Source: a virus
Virus record (IMG/VR): IMGVR_UViG_3300035034_000721
Span: 1-54,225 of that record
DNA length: 54,225 nucleotides
Reading direction: 5' to 3' (one strand)
In this document: positions 12,074-19,915 of the stretch, one piece after another
Layout: each line of letters opens with the position of its first letter
Numbering within the stretch: the first letter of the stretch is position 1
Position numbers and translations under genes: made by a program
The notes under the pieces: model-generated
What the model was told of the DNA's origin: nothing
Seen by the model: the letters and a program-made list of their open reading frames with translations, nothing else
The model's database searches: none

Positions 12074-12149
12074 TGCAGGGTAGTCATCTGGGTATGGCAA
12101 AGGTCTCATACGCCTCCAAAGATCAGTTCGATTCTGATCCCTGCAACCA
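12074..12149 (+). tRNA. tRNA-Met(CAT), elongator or Ile2 type
   Basis: 76 nt with encoded CCA. Acceptor TGCAGGG/CCCTGCA, D arm GTCA/TGGC, loop CTCATAC (anticodon CAT), T arm ATCAG-TTCGATT-CTGAT. The anticodon stem has one A-C mismatch at its base. A CAT anticodon could also be read as Ile (AUA) if the C is lysidine-modified. Confidence 0.85.
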
Positions 12150-12153
12150 TACT

Positions 12154-12229
12154 AGGGGCATAGCTCAATAGGAAGAGCATCGACCTTCTAAGTCGAGGGT
12201 TGTAGGTTCGATCCCTACTGTTCCTGCCA
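12154..12229 (+). tRNA. tRNA-Arg(TCT)
   Basis: 76 nt. Acceptor AGGGGCA/TGTTCCT, anticodon arm TCGAC-CTTCTAA-GTCGA, T arm GTAGG-TTCGATC-CCTAC, G discriminator, CCA encoded. Confidence 0.92.
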
Positions 12230-12442
12230 AATTTGGTGGTTAATTTCGAAAGCTCAGTGTTGGAATATACACGGGGTAGAGTTTAGGTTACTTCAGAAGT
12301 GTCGACAACTCGAAGTAAAGTAAATAGGTTAGAATAAGTTTAGAACACGCTTCTAATATAATACTAACTTCTAGTAGGCCATTTAACTGGTGCCACCTAC
12401 TAAGTCTTTTCGTCAGAACGATTGAGATTAACTACCAAATTT
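12229..12442 (+). ncRNA. structured segment closed by a 16-bp inverted repeat
   Basis: AAATTTGGTGGTTAAT (12229-12244) pairs with ATTAACTACCAAATTT (12427-12442), 15 Watson-Crick pairs and one G-T. Inside, AGTAGG...CCTACT (about 12372-12403) closes a second hairpin with GGC/GCC and CCA/TGG. The right arm ends ...CTACCA-AATTT, as the tRNAs of this array do. No tRNA could be folded and no ORF with a ribosome site was found. Candidate non-coding RNA. Confidence 0.5.
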
Positions 12443-12461
12443 GACAACAATAGGGATTATT

Positions 12462-12746
12462 ATGCGTAGATACATAGATAGAATTTTTAATGCGAGTGGG
12501 GAGCAATGGATTGGTTTTTTAGTACTATGTTTTATAGCCTCTTTAATGGTGTTGGCCTTAGGTGTAGCTTTCTCTGATAAAGGAGTAGGTTGCTACTACA
12601 CAAGCACTAGTGTACCAACTAACAGTTTAGCTAGAAATTACAACGTACTGGCTTCAGTTAACTGGGCCCCTGACCCTGTTGTTTTTACTACTTCAGAGAT
12701 TGTAGTTTTTAATGAGTACTTGAGCAAGGTAGCTCTTTGTAAGTAA
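12462..12746 (+). CDS. membrane-anchored small protein inside the tRNA array
   Basis: 94 residues from ATG 12462 after TAGGGATTATT (an upstream TTG at 12441 has no ribosome site). One transmembrane helix at about 17-40, then an outside-facing domain with two cysteines (GVGCYYT, VALCK). Function unknown. Confidence 0.65.
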   Translation: MRRYIDRIFNASGEQWIGFLVLCFIASLMVLALGVAFSDKGVGCYYTSTSVPTNSLARNYNVLASVNWAPDPVVFTTSEIVVFNEYLSKVALCK

Positions 12747-12754
12747 AAGACTGA

Positions 12755-12844
12755 GGAAGATTGGCTGAGTGGTCTAAGGCAGCGGGTTGCTAACTCGTAG
12801 GGTAATAAACGGCTCCGTGAGTTCGAATCTCACATCTTCCTCCA
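12755..12844 (+). tRNA. tRNA-Ser(GCT)
   Basis: 90 nt, class II with long variable arm. Acceptor GGAAGAT/ATCTTCC, loop TTGCTAA (anticodon GCT), T arm GTGAG-TTCGAAT-CTCAC, CCA encoded. Confidence 0.92.
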
Positions 12845-12896
12845 ATATTTATATGCCGTTGCTTGAGTTGGTCGAGGGCCACGGCATATAAATATT
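12844..12896 (+). ncRNA. 53-nt hairpin with perfect 16-bp stem capped by a D-arm-like loop
   Basis: AATATTTATATGCCGT (12844-12859) pairs perfectly with ACGGCATATAAATATT (12881-12896). The 21-base loop contains CTTGA-GTTGG-TCGAG, whose AGTTGGT resembles a tRNA D loop. It sits between tRNA-Ser and tRNA-Ala where a tRNA would be expected. Either a processing signal or a small stable RNA. Confidence 0.6.
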
Positions 12897-12898
12897 TA

Positions 12899-12969
12899 GG
12901 GACTAGTTATGGGTACGGATGGACACTTGCACTGTCTAGAGTAGAGTTCAATTCTCTATAGTTCCACCA
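12899..12969 (+). tRNA. tRNA-Ala(TGC) with shortened D arm
   Basis: 71 nt. Acceptor GGGACTA/TAGTTCC, anticodon arm GGACA-CTTGCAC-TGTCT (anticodon TGC), T arm TAGAG-TTCAATT-CTCTA, CCA encoded. Only 15 bases separate the acceptor and anticodon stems, so the D arm can form three pairs at most. Confidence 0.75.
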
Positions 12970-12973
12970 ATTT

Positions 12974-13048
12974 GGTTATATCGTATAATGGACATTATAT
13001 TCCCCTGTCACGGGAATGACGAGGGTTCAATTCCCTCTATAACCGCCA
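12974..13048 (+). tRNA. tRNA-Asp(GTC)
   Basis: 75 nt. Acceptor GGTTATA/TATAACC, anticodon arm TTCCC-CTGTCAC-GGGAA, T arm GAGGG-TTCAATT-CCCTC, G discriminator, CCA encoded. Confidence 0.93.
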
Positions 13049-13054
13049 CTTTAA

Positions 13055-13145
13055 GGAAGATGCCGCTAAATGGCTGGCAACTGGTTTTGAACACCAGGGT
13101 ATTGGTTAGTAGCCGTTAGGGGTTCGATTCCTCCATCTTCCTCCA
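13055..13145 (+). tRNA. tRNA-Ser(TGA)
   Basis: 91 nt, class II. Acceptor GGAAGAT/ATCTTCC identical to the other Ser tRNA, anticodon arm CTGGT-TTTGAAC-ACCAG, long variable arm, CCA encoded. Confidence 0.92.
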
Positions 13146-13163
13146 ATTTATTAAGGTATTGAT

Positions 13164-13376
13164 ATGGATAGTAAGTATGTAAGTACAGGCGCTAGCACTA
13201 TGGGGCTACTATGGGTAGCTTTAATTATACTTAAAGCTACGGGCTATATTGGCTGGTCATGGTTTATAGTTATTACCTCCTATGTGTGGATACCTTTAGC
13301 TGTACTGTTAGCCTGGGGATTCTTAGCTCTTTTAGCGTTTTTGTTATATGCAGCTTATGCTTTAGTTAAAAAATAA
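13164..13376 (+). CDS. small membrane protein inside the tRNA array
   Basis: 70 residues with two hydrophobic segments (about 12-30 and 33-67, the second possibly two helices). ATG after AAGGTATTGAT. Function unknown. Confidence 0.65.
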   Translation: MDSKYVSTGASTMGLLWVALIILKATGYIGWSWFIVITSYVWIPLAVLLAWGFLALLAFLLYAAYALVKK

Positions 13377-13406
13377 TGACAGACTTAGAAAAGTTAGTAG
13401 CAATAG

Positions 13407-13491
13407 AGTGGGTGCTTAGTAAGGTTAAGTATGACTTAAGCGCGGGACTTTGAATCCCGTTAAGTAAGTTCGATTCTTACACCTGCTGCCA
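13407..13491 (+). tRNA. tRNA-Gln(TTG)
   Basis: 85 nt. Acceptor AGTGGGT/ACCTGCT (two wobble pairs), anticodon arm CGGGA-CTTTGAA-TCCCG, T arm GTAAG-TTCGATT-CTTAC, G discriminator, CCA encoded. The D loop is unusually long (about 15 bases between CTTAG and CTTAAG). Confidence 0.78.
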
Positions 13492-13506
13492 CTATTAAGA
13501 GAATTT

Positions 13507-14556
13507 ATGCAAAAACAAGTAGCAAGCGTTTCAGGAGGCAGAACCTCCCACTACATGATACATGCTCTCCTAGAGAAGTTTTCTAGAGAAAATGTAGATT
13601 TTGTCTTTTGTGACACGGGTGCTGAACATAAAAATACTTACGAGTTTATACGAAAAACAGAGGAACACTTTAACATACATATACAATGTATAAGACTGTT
13701 TATGCCAAAACCCGAAGGTGAGGGAGGCGAGTACATAAAGCTTACTTCTGAGCAGATTGGTCTTAACTATAAAGCTTTCAATAGCTTAATGGAAAAATAT
13801 GGCAGACCTTATGTACCTTCAGGTAAGTTCTGTACCAACCAAATGAAAACCAATATATATAAAAAATACTGCAACGACACTTATGGGGAAGGTAACTATA
13901 CAACTTGGATTGGTTATAGGTCTGACCCAAAAGACTCTTCTAGGGCCTGGGGACAGTCACTTTCAGGAACCTTAACTAGGTGGTTTAATATCCCACAGGT
14001 AGACCAAGGAGACTTTTACAAAAACTGTAACCTTAAGTTGGAGGTATCTATAGGCACGCTCATAGACTATATCGCTGAGAATAAGCTAAACCCCACTTCT
14101 CAGTCTGAGTGGCGTAAGATTATGAAGATAGTTGATCGTGTTATGAAAAATAAACAGATAGGGTATAGGTTTTTATTTGAAATATCCGACTTTGAGGAGG
14201 AAGATATACTGAAGTGGTGGGGGTCTCAAGAGTTTGACTTAGATATACCAAACCATTGTGGAAATTGCGTATTTTGCATAGAAAAGAGTGTAAATCAACT
14301 AAGTTACTTATGTCATACCCAACCAGAATACGCGTCAGAGTGGGTAATACAACTAGACAGTAATAAAATCCCAAATAAAGATAGATTACTAGGTGAAAAG
14401 GTTATGTATAGAGATGGAGCTGCTAAACTGACCTTTGAAGAGATAAGAAATAATGCACTTAGCAAGCCTAAAGAGTACTGGGAGGCCAGGGTGTATAGAG
14501 AAACTAAGTCTAACCCTTGTGCACAGAACTCGTGCGAATCTTATACAGTAGACTAA
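13507..14556 (+). CDS. PP-loop (PAPS reductase/ATP pyrophosphatase-like) protein
   Basis: 349 residues. The N-terminal SGGRTS (9-14) is the PP-loop, in a variant of the usual SGGKDS; FVFCDTGAEH near 33-42 is the second conserved strand. A CxxC pair in HCGNCVFC near 251-258 could hold a metal or cluster or bind zinc. Members reduce PAPS, adenylate a substrate, or thiolate tRNA (TtcA-type enzymes have both a PP-loop and CxxC motifs). Its place between tRNA genes makes tRNA modification an attractive but unproven idea. ATG after AAGAGAATTT. Confidence 0.75.
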   Translation: MQKQVASVSGGRTSHYMIHALLEKFSRENVDFVFCDTGAEHKNTYEFIRKTEEHFNIHIQCIRLFMPKPEGEGGEYIKLTSEQIGLNYKAFNSLMEKYGRPYVPSGKFCTNQMKTNIYKKYCNDTYGEGNYTTWIGYRSDPKDSSRAWGQSLSGTLTRWFNIPQVDQGDFYKNCNLKLEVSIGTLIDYIAENKLNPTSQSEWRKIMKIVDRVMKNKQIGYRFLFEISDFEEEDILKWWGSQEFDLDIPNHCGNCVFCIEKSVNQLSYLCHTQPEYASEWVIQLDSNKIPNKDRLLGEKVMYRDGAAKLTFEEIRNNALSKPKEYWEARVYRETKSNPCAQNSCESYTVD

Positions 14557-14562
14557 ATAATA

Positions 14563-14608
14563 CGCCTCCCAAGCCTCTACGGGTATGCTTAAATTGAGGA
14601 GGCTTTTT
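14563..14608 (+). terminator. possible terminator after the PP-loop gene
   Basis: GCCTCC (14563-14568) pairs with GGAGGC (14598-14603), followed by TTTTT; the long loop can form AAGC/GCTT inside. It is upstream of tRNA-Arg, so complete termination is not expected. Confidence 0.5.
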
Positions 14609-14613
14609 ACAAC

Positions 14614-14689
14614 ACAGGCGTAGCTCAACTGGAAGAGCATAGTATTACGAATGCTAAGGTTGTAGGTTCGATTCCTACCGTCTGTGCCA
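14614..14689 (+). tRNA. tRNA-Arg(ACG)
   Basis: 76 nt. Acceptor ACAGGCG/CGTCTGT, D arm GCTC/GAGC, anticodon arm TAGTA-TTACGAA-TGCTA, T arm GTAGG-TTCGATT-CCTAC, CCA encoded. A34 would need deamination to inosine by the host to read CGC/CGA. Confidence 0.92.
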
Positions 14690-14697
14690 CATTCTTC

Positions 14698-14726
14698 TTG
14701 ACTTCTTAATCTTAACCTTGTATAAT
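14698..14726 (+). promoter_or_regulatory. sigma70 promoter inside the tRNA array
   Basis: TTGACT, 17 bp, TATAAT, leader ATATATATTGAATAGAGAAAGGA. Confidence 0.88.
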
Positions 14727-14756
14727 ATATATATTGAATAGAGAAAGGAACAGAGA

Positions 14757-14930
14757 ATGACAATTTATCAAGTTAAAGGCTTTAAGAATAGGATTCACTA
14801 TATCAAAGAGTTAGCGTTAGAGCACGGAATACCAGTAAGCTCAGTGATAGAAGTTGCTAATTTGTTAGGAAAAGATGAAGACTTTGATGGTCTTGTATCT
14901 ATGGTACAAGAATACAGTGGGCAACTATAA
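14757..14930 (+). CDS. 57-residue hypothetical protein
   Basis: ATG after AAAGGAACAGAGA: MTIYQVKGFKNRIHYIKELALEHGIPVSS..., ending TAA 14928-14930. Helical with a possible HTH (ALEHGIPVSSVIEVANLLG). Directly precedes tRNA-Leu. Function unknown. Confidence 0.65.
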   Translation: MTIYQVKGFKNRIHYIKELALEHGIPVSSVIEVANLLGKDEDFDGLVSMVQEYSGQL

Positions 14931-14931
14931 T

Positions 14932-15008
14932 ACAAGTGTGGCGAAATTGGCATACGCACTGGTTTTAGAAACCAGGTTTTGAGAGTTCGAGTCTCTCCCT
15001 TTGTACCA
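14932..15008 (+). tRNA. tRNA-Leu(TAG) lacking the long variable arm
   Basis: 77 nt. The 5' half (GTGGCGAAATTGGCATACGC) is typical of bacterial Leu tRNAs, anticodon arm CTGGT-TTTAGAA-ACCAG (TAG), T arm GAGAG-TTCGAGT-CTCTC, A discriminator, CCA encoded. Only GTTTT lies between the anticodon and T stems, where class II Leu tRNAs have 10 or more bases. One acceptor mismatch (T-C). Confidence 0.8.
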
Positions 15009-15012
15009 AATA

Positions 15013-15092
15013 CGGGTTAATTTACTATTAACTAGTAGTAGCTGGTGTCTTCTATGATAGAACAGAGAGTAGTTTCTCTGAATTGATACCCG
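15013..15092 (+). ncRNA. cloverleaf-like RNA without tRNA identity
   Basis: CGGGT (15013-15017) pairs with ACCCG (15088-15092), enclosing three hairpins: GTTAAT/ATTAAC, TTCTA/TAGAA and CAGAGA/TCTCTG. The overall shape and the 80-nt length are tRNA-like, but there is no T-loop motif or CCA. Confidence 0.4.
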
Positions 15093-15214
15093 ATAACAGT
15101 AGTTCGGTAACGCAATTACCGTTAGCACAAAGTGGTGGAGTACTCAGGTATGTTGAAGCTATGCGTGCATTTGCACTATTATAGTTTCGAAGAACACGCT
15201 GTTCGAAATTCTAT
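15093..15214 (+). ncRNA. run of three hairpins between the cloverleaf-like RNA and tRNA-Ile
   Basis: CGGTAA-CGCAA-TTACCG (about 15104-15120), GTGC-ATTT-GCAC (15165-15176), and a 36-nt hairpin TATAG-TTTCGAA...TTCGAAA-TT-CTATA (15180-15215) that abuts tRNA-Ile. No coding frame seen. Could be a processing or spacer structure. Confidence 0.4.
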
Positions 15215-15290
15215 ACTGTCTTAGTTCAGTAGGTAGAGCAGTCGACCGATAATCGACAGGTCTCTGGTTCAAGCCCAGAAGACAGTACCA
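15215..15290 (+). tRNA. tRNA-Ile(GAT)
   Basis: 76 nt. Acceptor ACTGTCT/AGACAGT, anticodon arm GTCGA-CCGATAA-TCGAC, T arm CTGG-TTCAAG-CCAG region, A discriminator, CCA encoded. Confidence 0.92.
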
Positions 15291-15296
15291 AATTTA

Positions 15297-15439
15297 GGGT
15301 GTGTCCCTGACGTAATAGTGGTAAAATGCACCACTCGTGACGATAATACGAAAAAACGTGTTTAGGTTGAGGGGACTCATAATTTCCATACTAAACATAG
15401 GTCTGGTTAGCCTACTTGCAAGTAACCACAAGTTTCAAT
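15297..15439 (+). ncRNA. structured non-coding segment before tRNA-Val(CAC)
   Basis: Contains GACG..AGTGGT-AAAATGC-ACCACT-CGT (15310-15338), GTTTAG/CTAAAC (15360-15365 with 15391-15396), and GGTTA...TAACC (about 15404-15426). GTCCC at 15303-15307 could also pair with GGGAC at 15372-15376. No ORF or tRNA recognised. Confidence 0.4.
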
Positions 15440-15510
15440 GTCTTGTTCATCTAATTGGTTAAGCCCCTCCTCACAGGGAGGTAATAAGAGTTCGACTCTC
15501 TTACAAGACA
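15440..15510 (+). tRNA. tRNA-Val(CAC)-like, no encoded CCA
   Basis: 71 nt. Acceptor GTCTTGT/ACAAGAC, discriminator A, T arm AAGAG-TTCGACT-CTCTT. The anticodon arm CCTCC-TCACAG-GGAGG has a six-base loop, or a seven-base loop with a C-A mismatch; T33 then puts CAC as anticodon. It lacks the CCA that nearly all other tRNAs here carry. Confidence 0.6.
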
Positions 15511-15573
15511 GCTGCGGGTACAGGTAAATACAATCCCATCTTCGGACGGATGTTCCCTTACCTGCGGCAACCA
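15511..15573 (+). ncRNA. 63-nt stem-loop RNA ending in CCA
   Basis: GCTGCGGGTA (15511-15520) pairs with TACCTGCGGC (15559-15568), ten pairs with two wobbles, followed by AACCA. Inside is CATC-TTCGGACG-GATG. It starts right after the CCA-less tRNA and ends with CCA before CTT, like a tRNA of this array, but has no D or T arm. Confidence 0.5.
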
Positions 15574-15578
15574 CTTAA

Positions 15579-15655
15579 CAGGATGTAGCGCAGCCAGGTA
15601 GCGTAGCTCGTTTGGAACGAGGCGGTCGTAGGTTCAAATCCTTCCATCCTGACCA
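15579..15655 (+). tRNA. tRNA-Pro(TGG)
   Basis: 77 nt. Acceptor CAGGATG/CATCCTG, anticodon arm GCTCG-TTTGGAA-CGAGG, T arm GTAGG-TTCAAAT-CCTTC (one mismatch), A discriminator, CCA encoded. Confidence 0.9.
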
Positions 15656-15662
15656 AATTTAA

Positions 15663-15879
15663 TGTAGGGTTCGAACCCCTTGCGAGCTTTAGAGGTCGTA
15701 CTCGACTAGGATGGTGACGGAGGCATTAATAGTTGCTGTAAAGGCCCGCAAAGCCCTAAGCAACGCAAACCAAGTCCTTTCCAGCTCGTCTTAGTAGCTC
15801 TAAGGCATGGAGGGCAAAATGGCGAAACGAATACTCCTGAGCTAAAGGGTAGTAGGGTACAAACCTCGCAAGTCCTACA
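15663..15879 (+). ncRNA. about 217-nt multibranched RNA candidate
   Basis: Two coaxial long-range helices close it: TGTAGG (15663-15668) with CCTACA (15874-15879), and CTTGCGAG (15679-15686) with CTCGCAAG (15865-15872); between the 5' arms is GGGTTCGAACCC. Internal hairpins: GTTGCT/AGCAAC (15732-15737 with 15759-15764) with GGC/GCC inside, CTTAG-TAGCT-CTAAG, and GCTC..GGAG/CTCC..GAGC. More GC-rich than its surroundings. No RNase P, tmRNA or group I core motifs were found. Confidence 0.55.
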
Positions 15880-15924
15880 CAAAGTAGTTTAGCGACTGCA
15901 TTGTAGGGCGGATCTAATTTAAAT

Positions 15925-15997
15925 GTTGGAGAGATACTGGGTATCGGCAAGATTCCAAACCTTCGCCTGTAGAGTTCGATTCTCTACTCCTTCGCCA
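15925..15997 (+). tRNA. tRNA-Trp(CCA)-like, degenerate
   Basis: 73 nt with encoded CCA. T arm TAGAG-TTCGATT-CTCTA is standard. The acceptor GTTGGAG/CTCCTTC has two T-T mismatches, the anticodon stem around TTCCAAA has only three good pairs, and GATAC-TGG-GTATC replaces a normal D arm. Anticodon read as CCA. Functional status uncertain. Confidence 0.55.
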
Positions 15998-16001
15998 CTT
16001 T

Positions 16002-16074
16002 AAGATGTCTGTAGAGTGTACCCTGAGGTCACTTGCAGGAAAACGGTAGTACCGTTTCACCCTACAAACATCTT
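16002..16074 (+). ncRNA. 73-nt three-way-junction RNA candidate
   Basis: AAGATGTCTGTAGAGTG (from 16002) pairs with CACCCTACAAACATCTT (to 16074) at 15 of 17 positions; inside are CCTG/CAGG and AAACGGT-AGT-ACCGTTT. Tandem position after a CCA and tRNA-like length, but no tRNA motifs. Its 3' arm overlaps the -35 box of the next promoter (CTTGACT). Confidence 0.6.
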
Positions 16075-16101
16075 GACTTATTTAAGAAAAGACTGTATAA
16101 T
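16073..16101 (+). promoter_or_regulatory. sigma70 promoter inside the tRNA array
   Basis: TTGACT, 17 bp, TATAAT, leader ATATATATTGAATTGAGAAAGAG. The -35 box starts inside the 3' arm of the preceding structured element. Confidence 0.87.
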
Positions 16102-16145
16102 ATATATATTGAATTGAGAAAGAGAATAAATAGAAGGTTAAGTTG

Positions 16146-16185
16146 GTCGTGATTGGTGCTCTGGGTTCGACTCCCAGGCACGACA
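16146..16185 (+). ncRNA. tRNA-like minihelix (acceptor plus T arm only)
   Basis: GTCGTG (16146) pairs with CACGAC (to 16184), and CTGGG-TTCGACT-CCCAG is a perfect T arm stacked on it. The 9-base ATTGGTGCT replaces the D and anticodon arms. No CCA follows. It is either the stump of a deleted tRNA or a real minihelix RNA, the first element after its promoter. Confidence 0.55.
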
Positions 16186-16275
16186 TAGTAAGTCATAATG
16201 AAGGTAGTACTGCCCAACCATGACTCTATTGCTAGGCCAAGCTCAGCTTTTCCTTTCTATTTTATTTTTAACGTC

Positions 16276-16348
16276 AGTATAGCACAGTTGGTAGTGCAGT
16301 TCACTTGTAATGAAAAGGTCGTAGGTTCGAAGCCTACTGCTGGCACCA
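16276..16348 (+). tRNA. tRNA-Thr(TGT)
   Basis: 73 nt. Acceptor GTCAGTA/TGCTGGC (two wobbles), anticodon arm GTTCA-CTTGTAA-TGAAA, T arm GTAGG-TTCGAAG-CCTAC, CCA encoded. Confidence 0.9.
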
Positions 16349-16363
16349 CTTTTAAGGATTATT

Positions 16364-16864
16364 ATGCAGCAGATAATAGAAACAGTACGTAGCTTAATCT
16401 CAGGGTATAGTAGTATACACATTATAGAAGGGAAATTGTATGTACCTTTAACAGATGAAAAAGAGCTTGTACCTGAGATGTTACTAAACTCGTTAAAGTA
16501 TCTTGAAGATCATGGACAGCATAGATCCGTCATTAATAGTATGATAAACTTTATGACCTTTGGTTATAACACACCTCGCCGTAGTGGGAAAACTACTGCT
16601 TTAAGAGCTATTAAAGAAATGTGTGTACAGAGCTTCGGGTATAGAGAAATCGACGCTAATGCTAAAGCTACAAGCAGGAATAACGCAGAAGATTTTTATT
16701 TTTTAGAAAAAGAGGGCAAGCTTATATTTCTAGTATCTGATATGGGGGAGGAGTTATTTAAGAGGTACACAGGTCAAAGCATACATCGTAACTTTACAGT
16801 ACTTAGAGGTTTTAGGCATAGTCTTACACCTCTAGTAATTAAATTAAACACTATAAAGGACTAA
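16364..16864 (+). CDS. hypothetical protein with a Walker A-like motif
   Basis: 166 residues, ATG after AAGGATTATT. NTPRRSGKTTALRAI near 66-80 resembles a P-loop of helicase/ATPase type; LIFLVSDMGEE near 120 could be a Walker B strand. Too short for a motor protein; could be a small nucleotide-binding regulator. It lies between tRNAs and the NADAR gene. Confidence 0.65.
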   Translation: MQQIIETVRSLISGYSSIHIIEGKLYVPLTDEKELVPEMLLNSLKYLEDHGQHRSVINSMINFMTFGYNTPRRSGKTTALRAIKEMCVQSFGYREIDANAKATSRNNAEDFYFLEKEGKLIFLVSDMGEELFKRYTGQSIHRNFTVLRGFRHSLTPLVIKLNTIKD

Positions 16865-16865
16865 C

Positions 16866-17306
16866 ATGATTACAGAGTTTAAAGATGAAAATCGCTTTCT
16901 ATCAAACTTCTCCCCTTGTACTGTTGAATATGCTGGGTTGTCCTTCCGCTCTGTAGAGCACGCTTTTGTAGCAGCTAAAACAGAGGATAGAGGAGAGCAA
17001 GCACATGTGCAAACTCTAACTGCGGGGCAAGCTAAAAGATTTGGCAGAAACCTTAATCTTCGCCCTAGCTGGGATTTGATGAAAATAGAAGTAATGAGAG
17101 GCTTGCTAGAGCAAAAGTTCGAGTTGCCTGAGTACAAAAAATTACTAATCGCCACGGGTTCTCAGCAAATAGTGGAGGGTAATACCTGGGGAGACACCTT
17201 CTGGGGTATGGTATTTAATAAAGACGGTGAGCTAGGGGAAGGAAACAACAATTTAGGTCTGATATTAATGGAAATCAGAGAGAATTTAGTAGAAAATAAC
17301 GCTTGA
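16866..17306 (+). CDS. NADAR/YbiA-family N-glycosidase-like protein
   Basis: 146 residues. The family signature is clear: NRFLSNFSPCTVEYAGL (9-25), SVEHAFVAAKT (29-39), and NTWGDTFWGMVF near 116-127 followed by NNLGLILMEIR. YbiA acts on riboflavin intermediates, and NADAR proteins have been reported to remove ADP-ribose from guanine in DNA. Located in the tRNA array one base after the previous gene; ends four bases before a new promoter. A role against DNA ADP-ribosylation (DarT) is inference. Confidence 0.85.
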   Translation: MITEFKDENRFLSNFSPCTVEYAGLSFRSVEHAFVAAKTEDRGEQAHVQTLTAGQAKRFGRNLNLRPSWDLMKIEVMRGLLEQKFELPEYKKLLIATGSQQIVEGNTWGDTFWGMVFNKDGELGEGNNNLGLILMEIRENLVENNA

Positions 17307-17331
17307 CAACTTAAGCCTAACCCTGTATAAT
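17303..17331 (+). promoter_or_regulatory. sigma70 promoter inside the tRNA array
   Basis: TTGACA, 17 bp, TATAAT, overlapping the stop of the NADAR gene; leader ATATATATTGAATAGAGAGAAGGA. Confidence 0.88.
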
Positions 17332-17363
17332 ATATATATTGAATAGAGAGAAGGAAAGAATAT

Positions 17364-17486
17364 ATGTGGCGATTATTATATAAAGGCAAAATAGTGGACA
17401 TTAGTTGTAGTTTTCAGTTACTTCATGATATAGCAGCTAGATACCCACACTGGAAAGAAGAAGATTGGGAAGTTGTTCCCAATTAA
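17364..17486 (+). CDS. 40-residue hypothetical peptide
   Basis: ATG after AAGGAAAGAATAT: MWRLLYKGKIVDISCSFQLL..., TAA 17484-17486. Sits between promoter and tRNA-Lys. Function unknown. Confidence 0.55.
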   Translation: MWRLLYKGKIVDISCSFQLLHDIAARYPHWKEEDWEVVPN

Positions 17487-17509
17487 GAGATTTATTAAAG
17501 TTTAGTTTA

Positions 17510-17586
17510 GGGCCGCTAATTCAACTGGTTAGAATATCCGCCTTTTAAGCGGGAGGTTCCTGGTTCGAATCCAGGGCGACCCACCA
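17510..17586 (+). tRNA. tRNA-Lys(TTT)
   Basis: 77 nt. Acceptor GGGCCGC/GCGACCC (one C-A mismatch), anticodon arm TCCGC-CTTTTAA-GCGGG, T arm CCTGG-TTCGAAT-CCAGG, CCA encoded. Confidence 0.9.
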
Positions 17587-17638
17587 AGTTAAACCTCTCA
17601 TATAAGGCAATTAGAGCTGGATTATCATGTTTAATAAA

Positions 17639-17713
17639 ATTCCGATAGCTCAAGGGTAGAGCGTCCGACTCATAATCGGCAGGTTCCTAGTTCAAATCTA
17701 GGTCGGAGTACCA
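17639..17713 (+). tRNA. tRNA-Met or Ile2 (CAT)
   Basis: 75 nt. Acceptor ATTCCGA/TCGGAGT, D arm GCTC/GAGC, anticodon arm CCGA-CTCATAA-TCGG, T arm CCTAG-TTCAAAT-CTAGG, CCA encoded. Elongator Met or lysidine-modified Ile. Confidence 0.9.
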
Positions 17714-17719
17714 AACAGT

Positions 17720-17797
17720 CGCGGGTTAGTGTTCTGGTTGAACACATCGGTCTCATAAGCCGAAATGAGAGTGGTTCGATTCCACTACCCGCTACCA
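17720..17797 (+). tRNA. tRNA-fMet-like initiator (CAT)
   Basis: 78 nt. Starts CGCGGG and ends CCCGCTACCA, so the first acceptor pair is C-T and unpaired, the hallmark of bacterial initiators. Anticodon arm TCGGT-CTCATAA-GCCGA keeps two of the three G-C pairs of initiators, T arm AGTGG-TTCGATT-CCACT. Confidence 0.82.
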
Positions 17798-17804
17798 CTT
17801 TACT

Positions 17805-17856
17805 GGGGAGAGGTTAATTTCTCTTAGTTGGTTGCTTTTGTCTTCAACCTCTCCCC
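17805..17856 (+). ncRNA. 52-nt hairpin with perfect 11-bp stem
   Basis: GGGGAGAGGTT (17805-17815) pairs with AACCTCTCCCC (17846-17856). The 30-base loop contains TTAGTTGGTTG, like the loop of the hairpin at 12844. It occupies a position between two tRNAs and has no U-run. Confidence 0.55.
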
Positions 17857-17860
17857 CACT

Positions 17861-17935
17861 GCTCCCGTCATCTAATGGTTAGGATATCGCCCTTTCAAGG
17901 CGAGTATACGAGTTCAAGTCTCGTCGGGAGTACCA
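17861..17935 (+). tRNA. tRNA-Glu(TTC)
   Basis: 75 nt. Acceptor GCTCCCG/CGGGAGT, anticodon arm CGCC-CTTTCAA-GGCG, T arm ACGAG-TTCAAGT-CTCGT, CCA encoded. Confidence 0.92.
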
Positions 17936-17941
17936 TTTTAT

Positions 17942-18016
17942 ACTCGATTAGCTTAGTGGCAAAGCAGTGGTTTTACATACCAAAGATCGTTAGTTCGAAC
18001 CTAACATCGAGTACCA
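17942..18016 (+). tRNA. tRNA-Val(TAC)
   Basis: 75 nt. Acceptor ACTCGAT/ATCGAGT, anticodon arm TGGT-TTTACAT-ACCA, T arm GTTAG-TTCGAAC-CTAAC, CCA encoded. Confidence 0.92.
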
Positions 18017-18103
18017 GTTTTGGTTCATTACCAAAAAACCATTTATCTTAAAGCGCTTGTATGGTTGGAGCAGTTAAAGTCTGTAACAAGCCAGCAAATT
18101 TTA
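18017..18103 (+). ncRNA. structured spacer between tRNA-Val and tRNA-Asn
   Basis: TTTTGGT-TCATT-ACCAAAA hairpin, then AACCAT/ATGGTT and GCTTGT/ACAAGC as alternative longer pairings. No ORF or tRNA. 87 nt, again about one tRNA long. Confidence 0.35.
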
Positions 18104-18179
18104 GGGGGTTTAGCTCAGTGTGTAGAGCGAGGAGCTGTTAACTCTTAGGTCAGTGGTTCAAATCCATTAACCCCCGCCA
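18104..18179 (+). tRNA. tRNA-Asn(GTT)
   Basis: 76 nt. Acceptor GGGGGTT/AACCCCC, D arm GCTC/GAGC, anticodon arm AGGAG-CTGTTAA-CTCTT, G discriminator, CCA encoded. Confidence 0.93.
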
Positions 18180-18186
18180 CTTTATT

Positions 18187-18271
18187 GGGTGTATAGACAC
18201 GTATGGATCGTGTGCGGCCTGTAACGTCGTTCCGCAAGGCATTTTGGGTTCGATTCCTAATACACCCACCA
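18187..18271 (+). tRNA. tRNA-Tyr(GTA)
   Basis: 85 nt, class II. Acceptor GGGTGTA/TACACCC, anticodon arm GCGGC-CTGTAAC-GTCGT, variable arm with TCCGCAAGGCA, T arm TTGGG-TTCGATT-CCTAA, CCA encoded. Confidence 0.9.
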
Positions 18272-18275
18272 ATTT

Positions 18276-18350
18276 AGAGAGTTAGCTGAGACGGATTAGC
18301 ATGGGTTTGAAGAACCTAATAGGTTGGATCGTTACCAACACTCTCTACCA
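18276..18350 (+). tRNA. tRNA-Phe(GAA)
   Basis: 75 nt. Acceptor AGAGAGT/ACTCTCT, anticodon arm TGGGT-TTGAAGA-ACCTA, T stem GTTGG/CCAAC, CCA encoded. The T loop is ATCGTTA instead of the usual TTCRANN. Confidence 0.87.
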
Positions 18351-18358
18351 ATTTTAAC

Positions 18359-18431
18359 GCGAGTACGATCAAGGTGATCCGCCAGCCTTCCAAGCTGTGT
18401 AGTGAGGGTTCGATTCCCTCTACCCGCTCCA
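18359..18431 (+). tRNA. tRNA-Gly(TCC)
   Basis: 73 nt. Acceptor GCGAGTA/TACCCGC (one A-C mismatch), anticodon arm CAGC-CTTCCAA-GCTG, T arm GAGGG-TTCGATT-CCCTC, T discriminator, CCA encoded. Confidence 0.9.
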
Positions 18432-18437
18432 ATTTTA

Positions 18438-18512
18438 GCGCACTTGACAGAGTGGTAATGTAGCGGTTTGCAATCCCGTTTTTCGTTGGTTCGATTCCAA
18501 CAGTGTGCTCCA
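18438..18512 (+). tRNA. tRNA-Cys(GCA)
   Basis: 75 nt. Acceptor GCGCACT/AGTGTGC, loop TTGCAAT (anticodon GCA) with a T-C mismatch closing the loop, T arm GTTGG-TTCGATT-CCAAC, CCA encoded. Confidence 0.88.
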
Positions 18513-18538
18513 CTTTTAAGTCATAACCCAAGTGTTGG

Positions 18539-18609
18539 TAAGTGGTGAAGGCAAGCTAGTAGCGGATAAATACATGAGCCTTCTTAAAGAGTCTGTGACC
18601 GCCCACTTA
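18539..18609 (+). ncRNA. 71-nt RNA candidate closed by a 7-bp stem
   Basis: TAAGTGG (18539-18545) pairs with CCACTTA (18603-18609), and one base further in GAAGGC (18547-18552) pairs with GCCTTC (18578-18583). Acceptor-stem-like length but no T arm, D arm or CCA. Confidence 0.45.
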
Positions 18610-18617
18610 ATTTATTA

Positions 18618-18705
18618 CATTGAAGAGTGCTCCGCCATTAGCTATGGTAATCTTTGGTAAGGTGCGCGCAGTAGAGGTTCGATTCCTGTGGATCACTCCT
18701 CAATG
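18618..18705 (+). ncRNA. tRNA-like element with extended acceptor helix
   Basis: CATTGAAGAGTG (18618-18629) pairs with CACTCCTCAATG (18694-18705), 11 of 12. A T-loop TTCGATT (within GTAGAGG..CCTGT) is present, and the rest folds poorly; a loop CTTTGGTAA could be a Pro-type anticodon. CTCA, not CCA, stands at the tRNA 3' position. Probably a decayed tRNA or a tRNA-derived RNA. Confidence 0.45.
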
Positions 18706-19219: not shown

Positions 19220-19915
19220 ATGAAAAAAGCAATAATCGTAGGAGATCTCCACGGGTGTGTAGAGGTCGTAGGCATGGCACTAGCTGCCTCGGAAAAAGAA
19301 AATGCTGAGTTAATCTTTGTAGGGGATTATGTAGATAGCTTCTCTGCATCAAAAGATAGCCAAGTATCTACAGTGGTTCAAATACTTGACTTAGTAGAGC
19401 AAGGGAGAGCTAGAGCTTTAATAGGCAACCATGAAATGTCGTACCTTGACACAACTAAGAAGTGTAGTGGATGGAATGAGTATATGTATAGCATGATGAC
19501 TCATTTAAGAGGACAAATATGGAGTAATTTTGAAACTCATATTTGGTTAGAAGATTCAACGCTTATTACACATGCGGGACTGACAAACGCAATACTGGAG
19601 CCTGGTAGTACTCTAGAGGATATAAAACAAGGGCTTCTAGAAGAGAAGTGGCTTTATCAAGTAGGTTATAGCCGAGGTGGTAATAGCCCAGTGGGTGGTA
19701 TATTGTGGTCTGACTGGTACAGAGACTTTGATACAATACCTGGGCTTACTCAGATATTTGGGCATTCCCGACCTAGAGGAGGAGATAATGCTAGCATATT
19801 TAGACGTAAAGGTTTATCTACGTGTATCGACGTTATAGAAGACTGCAAAGCCCAAAATAAGCCTTACACTGTAGCATTGTACGTAGATGGAAAGGTTACA
19901 GAGTATAAACTTTAA
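19220..19915 (+). CDS. PPP-type metallophosphatase, lambda phosphatase-like
   Basis: 231 residues, close to the 221 of phage lambda protein phosphatase. Motifs: GDLHGC (8-13), GDYVDS near 35-40, GNHE near 73-76, THAG near 117-120 and GHSRPRGGD near 181-189. These supply the two-metal site and the catalytic His. May dephosphorylate proteins or nucleotides (e.g. ApppA-like); substrate unknown. Confidence 0.87.
   Translation: MKKAIIVGDLHGCVEVVGMALAASEKENAELIFVGDYVDSFSASKDSQVSTVVQILDLVEQGRARALIGNHEMSYLDTTKKCSGWNEYMYSMMTHLRGQIWSNFETHIWLEDSTLITHAGLTNAILEPGSTLEDIKQGLLEEKWLYQVGYSRGGNSPVGGILWSDWYRDFDTIPGLTQIFGHSRPRGGDNASIFRRKGLSTCIDVIEDCKAQNKPYTVALYVDGKVTEYKL

Follow-up and report, generated by a model that had tools for sequence, protein, structure and literature searches.

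Small structured RNAs, among them a pseudoknot family, in the tRNA array of a T5-like phage

Described RNAs of phage tRNA arrays and the present locus

The tRNA region of phage T5 has long been annotated with stable RNAs that lack a known function. Here we consider a region of this type in the viral record IMGVR_UViG_3300035034_000721, whose 54,225 nucleotides were analysed at full length (hereinafter, the window). Eleven gaps between the genes of its tRNA array, designated E1 to E11, are neither coding nor tRNA; one of them, E10, contains a pseudoknot conserved among phages, and an RNA resembling the abiF family lies elsewhere in the array.

The T5 record (AY543070.1) lists eight RNAs in the tRNA region, namely rnaI, rnaIII, rnaIV, rna1, rna2, rna2H, rna3 and rnaX, annotated as stable or tRNA-like and mostly “with unknown functions”. 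Those that we tested keep their sequence in 424-491 phage records, and rnaIII and rna2H are closed by terminal helices of 12 and 10 bp, respectively. In relatives of rna1 (144 nt) double-sided compensation is found at 10 of 36 pairs, and in relatives of rna2H (172 nt) at 11 of 52, its 10-bp terminal helix being invariant. In the alignment of rna2H with its relatives (A3), two peripheral hairpins are exchanged as whole modules; the core and the terminal helix do not vary.

Two further systems concern phage or host RNAs that neutralise toxins. Pseudo-ToxI of phage PhiTE is a phage RNA that imitates an RNA antitoxin of the host and thereby counters ToxIN (PMC3475682). The abiF RNA is the RNA antitoxin of AbiF/Abi_2 systems; its Clostridioides difficile representative, RCd22, silences AbiF both in cis and in trans through direct binding, and the neutralisation is lost when the RCd22 stems are disrupted (PMC12373285).

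Judging by its genes, the 54-kb window is part of a T5-like phage: its replication genes are of T5 type, and its DNA polymerase shares about 43-44% identity with those of T5-like phages of Aeromonas, Vibrio and Proteus, and about 70% with those of many viral contigs (about 90 contigs at 67-72%). The sources of these relatives suggest a marine origin of the contigs and the phage. We believe that small structured RNAs are encoded here along with the genes of a T5-type tRNA array and that some of these RNAs are mimics directed against RNA-gated toxins of the host, and put the probability of this reading at about 0.6. In its parts, the account of what the elements are is very probable, and the mimic role is held tentatively, at somewhat less than even odds.

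The E10 pseudoknot family

When the concatenated gap sequences were used as a query, only one element had relatives, at window positions 18038-18103. It corresponds to the following structure.

E10: 18036-18094, + strand, H-type pseudoknot of 59 nt whose loop holds a hairpin
E10 helices, + strand: stem a, 18037-18042/18061-18066; stem b, 18055-18060/18086-18091; loop hairpin P3 (4 bp), 18070-18073/18081-18084

The segment is 86% identical in about 289 records of Vibrio T5-like phages, and a Vibrio copy used as the query matches 298 Vibrio records. Further copies were found in the Pseudoalteromonas phage vB_Psh_XG4 (158 kb) and, by a degenerate pattern, in an 86-kb IMG/VR contig (G060), which gives 299 phage records and one contig in total. 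The Vibrio copies belong mostly to one clade, so that the independent lineages number about five: the window, Vibrio D-type, Vibrio X1-type, XG4 and G060. When the window is compared with the Vibrio phages, no other stretch of the array, any tRNA included, is as well conserved as E10 (86%, E 1e-15), although the DNA polymerase shares only about 44% identity.

A gap-free alignment of seven distinct copies places stem a in columns 2-7/26-31 and stem b in columns 20-25/51-56; the two stems are continuous on one strand. Compensatory changes occur in stem a (AACCAT/ATGGTT, GACCAT/ATGGTC, GACCGT/ACGGTC, TAGCAT/ATGCTA), in stem b (GCTTGT/ACAAGC, GCTTGC/GCAAGC) and in the loop hairpin (GCAG/CTGT, GAGG/CCTC, GGGG/CCCC). 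The proportion of paired cells is 97.3% versus 31-42% when the helices are slid along the alignment, with six double-compensated pairs; the covariation is 0.289 versus 0.115±0.027 in shuffles (0 of 500 reach it), and all three helices covary. Nested folding misses a pseudoknot, and the nested-fold z-score of E10 is -0.1; it was for this reason that the initial annotation, right on roughly half of the segments, passed over the one with phylogenetic proof.

E10 is a previously undescribed RNA family common to phages of different lineages. No family of Rfam 15 matches it above the cut-off (the best score, 11.5 bits with E 3.4, is that of a trypanosome small nucleolar RNA). The exact pattern is absent from 84,980 bacterial and archaeal genomes, blastn found no copy in plasmids, and a search of the T5 array gave none; E-values obtained with the E10 model are rough. 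By eye, E10 was suggestive of a mimic of helices h35/h36 of 16S rRNA, where the 3' half has its best match in E. coli rrn; this candidate was rejected, as the match is unsupported (p 0.27) and model R3 finds none there.

The loop between stems a and b hardly varies, possibly because a partner binds there, and conservation is as high in the unpaired loop bases as in the stems. It is tempting to regard E10 as a cis-regulatory pseudoknot that senses a metabolite or a protein in the manner of a riboswitch and controls the genes downstream: riboswitches are typically H-type pseudoknots with a conserved loop, and in the Vibrio phages, where E10 is part of a run of tRNA genes, it is followed within about 100 nt by a promoter-like sequence and a small open reading frame. 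However, tRNA genes surround E10 in every copy examined, and the next gene is a tRNA in the window (Asn), in XG4 (Arg) and in G060 (Thr); since tRNAs rather than a common protein gene follow, there is no shared gene to be regulated, and we consider cis-regulation highly improbable. The element occurs once in each locus examined and is an H-type pseudoknot, as are the ToxI-like antitoxins of type III.

The abiF-like RNA and the other elements of the array

Another element, unlike E10, resembles a described family.

abiF-like RNA: 14565-14603, + strand, in the gap from the PAPS-reductase-like gene to tRNA-Arg(ACG), with five T directly after it

It scores 28.9 bits against abiF (RF03085), below the gathering cut-off of 37, with E 8.9e-5 for this single family over the whole window. 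The conserved core CAAGCCUCU...AUGCU.AAAU.G and the stem architecture are both retained, the outer stem being altered with compensation. The sister phage G001, whose DNA polymerase is 71% identical, carries in an intergenic gap (L006:2218-2254) an abiF RNA that is above the cut-off, at 47.2 bits and E 1.3e-6 over all Rfam families. Neither the 54-kb window nor the 22-kb G001 contig, both of them fragments, contains an Abi_2 protein (PF07751). Most simply, such an orphan RNA in a phage may be an anti-AbiF RNA, by analogy with the silencing of AbiF by RCd22 in trans (PMC12373285) and with the logic of pseudo-ToxI (PMC3475682). A match in another contig (G016, 24.6 bits) was not reproduced over all Rfam families and is not claimed.

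The other gaps were compared with dinucleotide shuffles, 500 for the pairing of the first and last 24 nt (the terminal helix) and 200 for the folding energy; the z-score of the minimum free energy and the share of shuffles reaching the observed pairing, or its p-value, are given for each of those listed.

E1: 12234-12441, + strand, multi-branched RNA with a 16-pair terminal helix, z -4.3, 0/500
E2: 12845-12898, + strand, 15-pair hairpin in the tRNA-Ser/tRNA-Ala gap, z -5.2, 0/500
E3: 15009-15214, + strand, 206-nt gap that folds without a terminal helix, z -2.5, helix p 0.91
E5: 15511-15575, + strand, hairpin-like RNA with the 3' end ...CGGCAACCA, z -3.4, 0/500
E6: 15656-15932, + strand, 277-nt non-coding gap with an ordinary fold, z -1.1, helix p 0.33
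E7: 16001-16074, + strand, closed RNA adjoining the promoter at 16073 on its upstream side, z -3.5, 0/500
E8: 16128-16256, + strand, putative leader of the promoter-16073 transcript, z -2.0, helix borderline, p 0.056
E9: 17800-17860, + strand, 11-pair hairpin in the tRNA-Met/tRNA-Glu gap, z -3.2, 0/500

Strong terminal helices had been proposed for the non-tRNA segments in general. They hold for E1, E2, E5, E7 and E9, where the helix beats all 500 shuffles and the fold is exceptional as well (z -3.2 to -5.2), and marginally for E8; E3, E4, E6, E10 and E11 have no terminal helix beyond that of shuffled sequence, and the overall fold of E4, E6, E10 and E11 is not exceptional. E3 nevertheless folds well. 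The segments had also been called a family, which we could not confirm: in a BLAST comparison of element with element the similarity is at chance level, and no pair is related. E1 is flanked by CCA-AATTT at both ends.

Pieces of tRNA had been reported as well. E8 does carry a T arm outside any tRNA (about 16160-16176); at about 16147-16185 an acceptor-like stem is stacked on this perfect T arm, the D and anticodon arms being replaced by 9 nt, and positions 16142-16184 give a weak mascRNA-like match. E6 begins with a T-arm-like sequence (about 15665). The AGTTGGT 7-mers are present and too short to be meaningful. These T arms, together with the degenerate tRNAs of the array (15439, which lacks CCA, and 18626) and with E4, E6 and E11, which fold no better than shuffled sequence, are what one would expect if the elements were tRNA genes in decay and AT-rich spacer that folds by chance. 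As a general account this has little probability, as in five elements the terminal helix is stronger than in any of the 500 shuffles, closed helices of 11-16 pairs are not a product of decay, and the structure of E10 is under selection; decay or chance is unlikely for E1, E2, E5, E7, E9 and E10, and may account for E4, E6 and E11.

Another explanation is that the elements serve processing and stability only, as hairpins that set the cleavage by RNase III, E or P between tRNAs or as terminators, with no action in trans. The simple tRNA-length hairpins E2, E5 and E9 between tRNAs would agree with this, as would the T run directly behind the abiF-like element, which comes right after a gene. On the other hand, E2, E5 and E9 lack U-runs and are not terminators (E2 has none on its 3' side, is not among the terminator-like sites and therefore is not an intrinsic terminator); the loop bases of E10 are conserved like its stems though the flanking tRNAs differ among phages, unlike a spacer; and rna1 and rna2H of T5 are 144 and 172 nt long with covarying helices. 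We regard this explanation as unlikely for the set as a whole.

The array in which these elements lie is summarised below.

tRNA array: 12074..18701, + strand, at least four transcription units with about 25 genes for tRNAs or tRNA-like RNAs
sigma-70-type promoters of common design: 12016, 14698, 16073 and 17303, each with 11-12 of 12 consensus bases

ARAGORN reports 18 tRNA genes, and Rfam 19 matches above the cut-off, Gln 13414 and Gly 18359 included. The Ala gene at 12899 is below the Rfam threshold, yet shares about 81% identity with a gene of Vibrio phages that resembles tRNA-Ala, and Tyr 18186, picked up by the tRNA-Sec model, is 74% identical to a tRNA of G060. With three degenerate tRNA-like genes recognised by eye (15439, which has no CCA; Trp at about 15930; 18626), the total is 22 good and 3 odd genes by ARAGORN, Rfam, relatives and eye, so that the earlier count of 24 was about right. 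The gene at 15439-15511 has a perfect acceptor stem, no encoded CCA and an odd-sized anticodon loop (CCTCC-TCACAG-GGAGG), and is possibly an anticodon-loop variant.

A 25-bp motif associated with the promoters, GTATAATATATATATTGAATNGAGA, occurs in five copies on the + strand (4009, 11353, 14720, 16095 and 17325), with none expected by chance. Its matches in two unrelated T4-like contigs were dismissed as chance. Among the tRNAs there are small open reading frames, such as that of the PAPS-reductase-like protein at 13507, and a NADAR-domain protein (window 16866-17306; PF08719, E 3e-22). The substrates of NADAR enzymes are ADP-ribosylated; because of this action the NADAR gene may be another counter-defence gene. 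Permuted transfer-messenger RNA genes were seen in two viral contigs, at L114:9193-9506 within the tRNA array of G060 and at L105:8319-8729, the latter with the tag ANDNEAFEDYALAA.

Searches with two proteins and with the DNA polymerase led to no relative of the array itself. The proteins at 19220-19915 and 16364-16864 have no relatives in IMG/VR, and among 59 records of polymerase-related contigs scanned for tRNAs only 2 have any, one each; the window and G060 are metagenomic fragments. Because no array relative is available, the case for E1, E2, E5, E7 and E9, which have no relatives in the phage collection, is that of the shuffle tests.

Proposed mechanism, meaning and comparison with known systems

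From structure and conservation we infer the following on transcription, processing and role. The elements would be transcribed from the four promoters of the array and cut out by tRNA-processing nucleases alongside the tRNAs. The earlier proposal of small stable RNAs released with the tRNAs would fit the precedent of the stable RNAs annotated in T5. With less certainty, the abiF-like RNA and possibly E10 may act in trans during infection as RNA mimics that silence RNA-gated toxins of the host, and the plain long hairpins may be mainly processing or stability spacers. As to the earlier suggestion of decoys, the orphan abiF-like RNA and the full abiF RNA of G001 lend specific, if indirect, support to its part on RNA-sensing defences, and nothing ties the elements to anticodon nucleases.

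Several points weigh against the mimic reading. The abiF-like match has E only 0.048 over all Rfam families in the array, and the window copy, besides being below the cut-off, has one extra base in the outer stem. As it ends in TTTTT, it is possibly a plain terminator after the PAPS-reductase-like gene. The abiF RNA was not found in complete T5-like phages or in XG4. For E10 there is no known toxin or partner, although no search aimed at toxin families was made, and for E1, E2, E5, E7 and E9 the support consists of shuffle statistics, with no relatives found.

A wider proposal, which we offer as speculative and rather less probable than not, is that phages keep a stock of counter-defence RNAs in their tRNA arrays: the E10 family would inhibit a host toxin or nuclease and pass from one marine phage lineage to another, the orphan abiF RNAs of T5-like phages would act against AbiF, and the stable RNAs of T5 would act likewise. 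If the mimic reading is true, phage tRNA arrays protect by spare antitoxin RNAs besides spare tRNAs, and E10 can be used as bait for the host system that it counters. The kind of stable RNA annotated in T5 is now extended to a distant marine relative; covariation establishes one member, E10, as a new family of pseudoknots, and for another a concrete target, AbiF, suggests itself, so that the old puzzle of the role of phage stable RNAs becomes testable.

Among the described systems, GOLLD RNA (RF02032) is likewise a large phage non-coding RNA in a tRNA array, and in the same Vibrio arrays as E10; it is unrelated to E10, lies more than 750 nt from it and is absent from the window by the Rfam scan. 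We observed it in Vibrio phages D419 (L107:8129-8549) and D260 (L108:7820-8235) at 176-177 bits. The abiF RNA is matched by the core and the compensated outer stem at 14565-14603 and, above the cut-off, by the G001 copy; in contrast to abiF systems, both copies are orphans, as the window and the 22-kb G001 contig lack an Abi_2 gene. Pseudo-ToxI, a phage-encoded non-coding RNA acting as an antitoxin mimic, represents the mechanism proposed for the RNAs of the window; its toxin is known and it consists of ToxI-like pseudoknot units in tandem, whereas E10 has only one pseudoknot, to which a further hairpin is added.

T5 itself is the closest precedent. As in T5, where such RNAs span 73-719 nt, the structured non-tRNA RNAs of the window sit among the tRNAs of a T5-type array in a T5-like phage, and several promoters lie within the array in both. 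T5 rnaIII, rna2H and rnaIV are closed by terminal helices like the window elements, and some T5 RNAs (rna1, rna2) are tRNA-like. The structure is beyond chance, by shuffles for E1, E2, E5, E7 and E9 and by covariation for E10. Unlike location and structure, homology in sequence or structure to a named T5 RNA was not detected for those tested: the rna2H covariance model has no match in the window, that of rna1 picks up nothing there beyond ordinary tRNAs or their T arms, and the other T5 RNAs, compared by BLAST only, show none. The kind of RNA is known from T5; the individual RNAs here are different.

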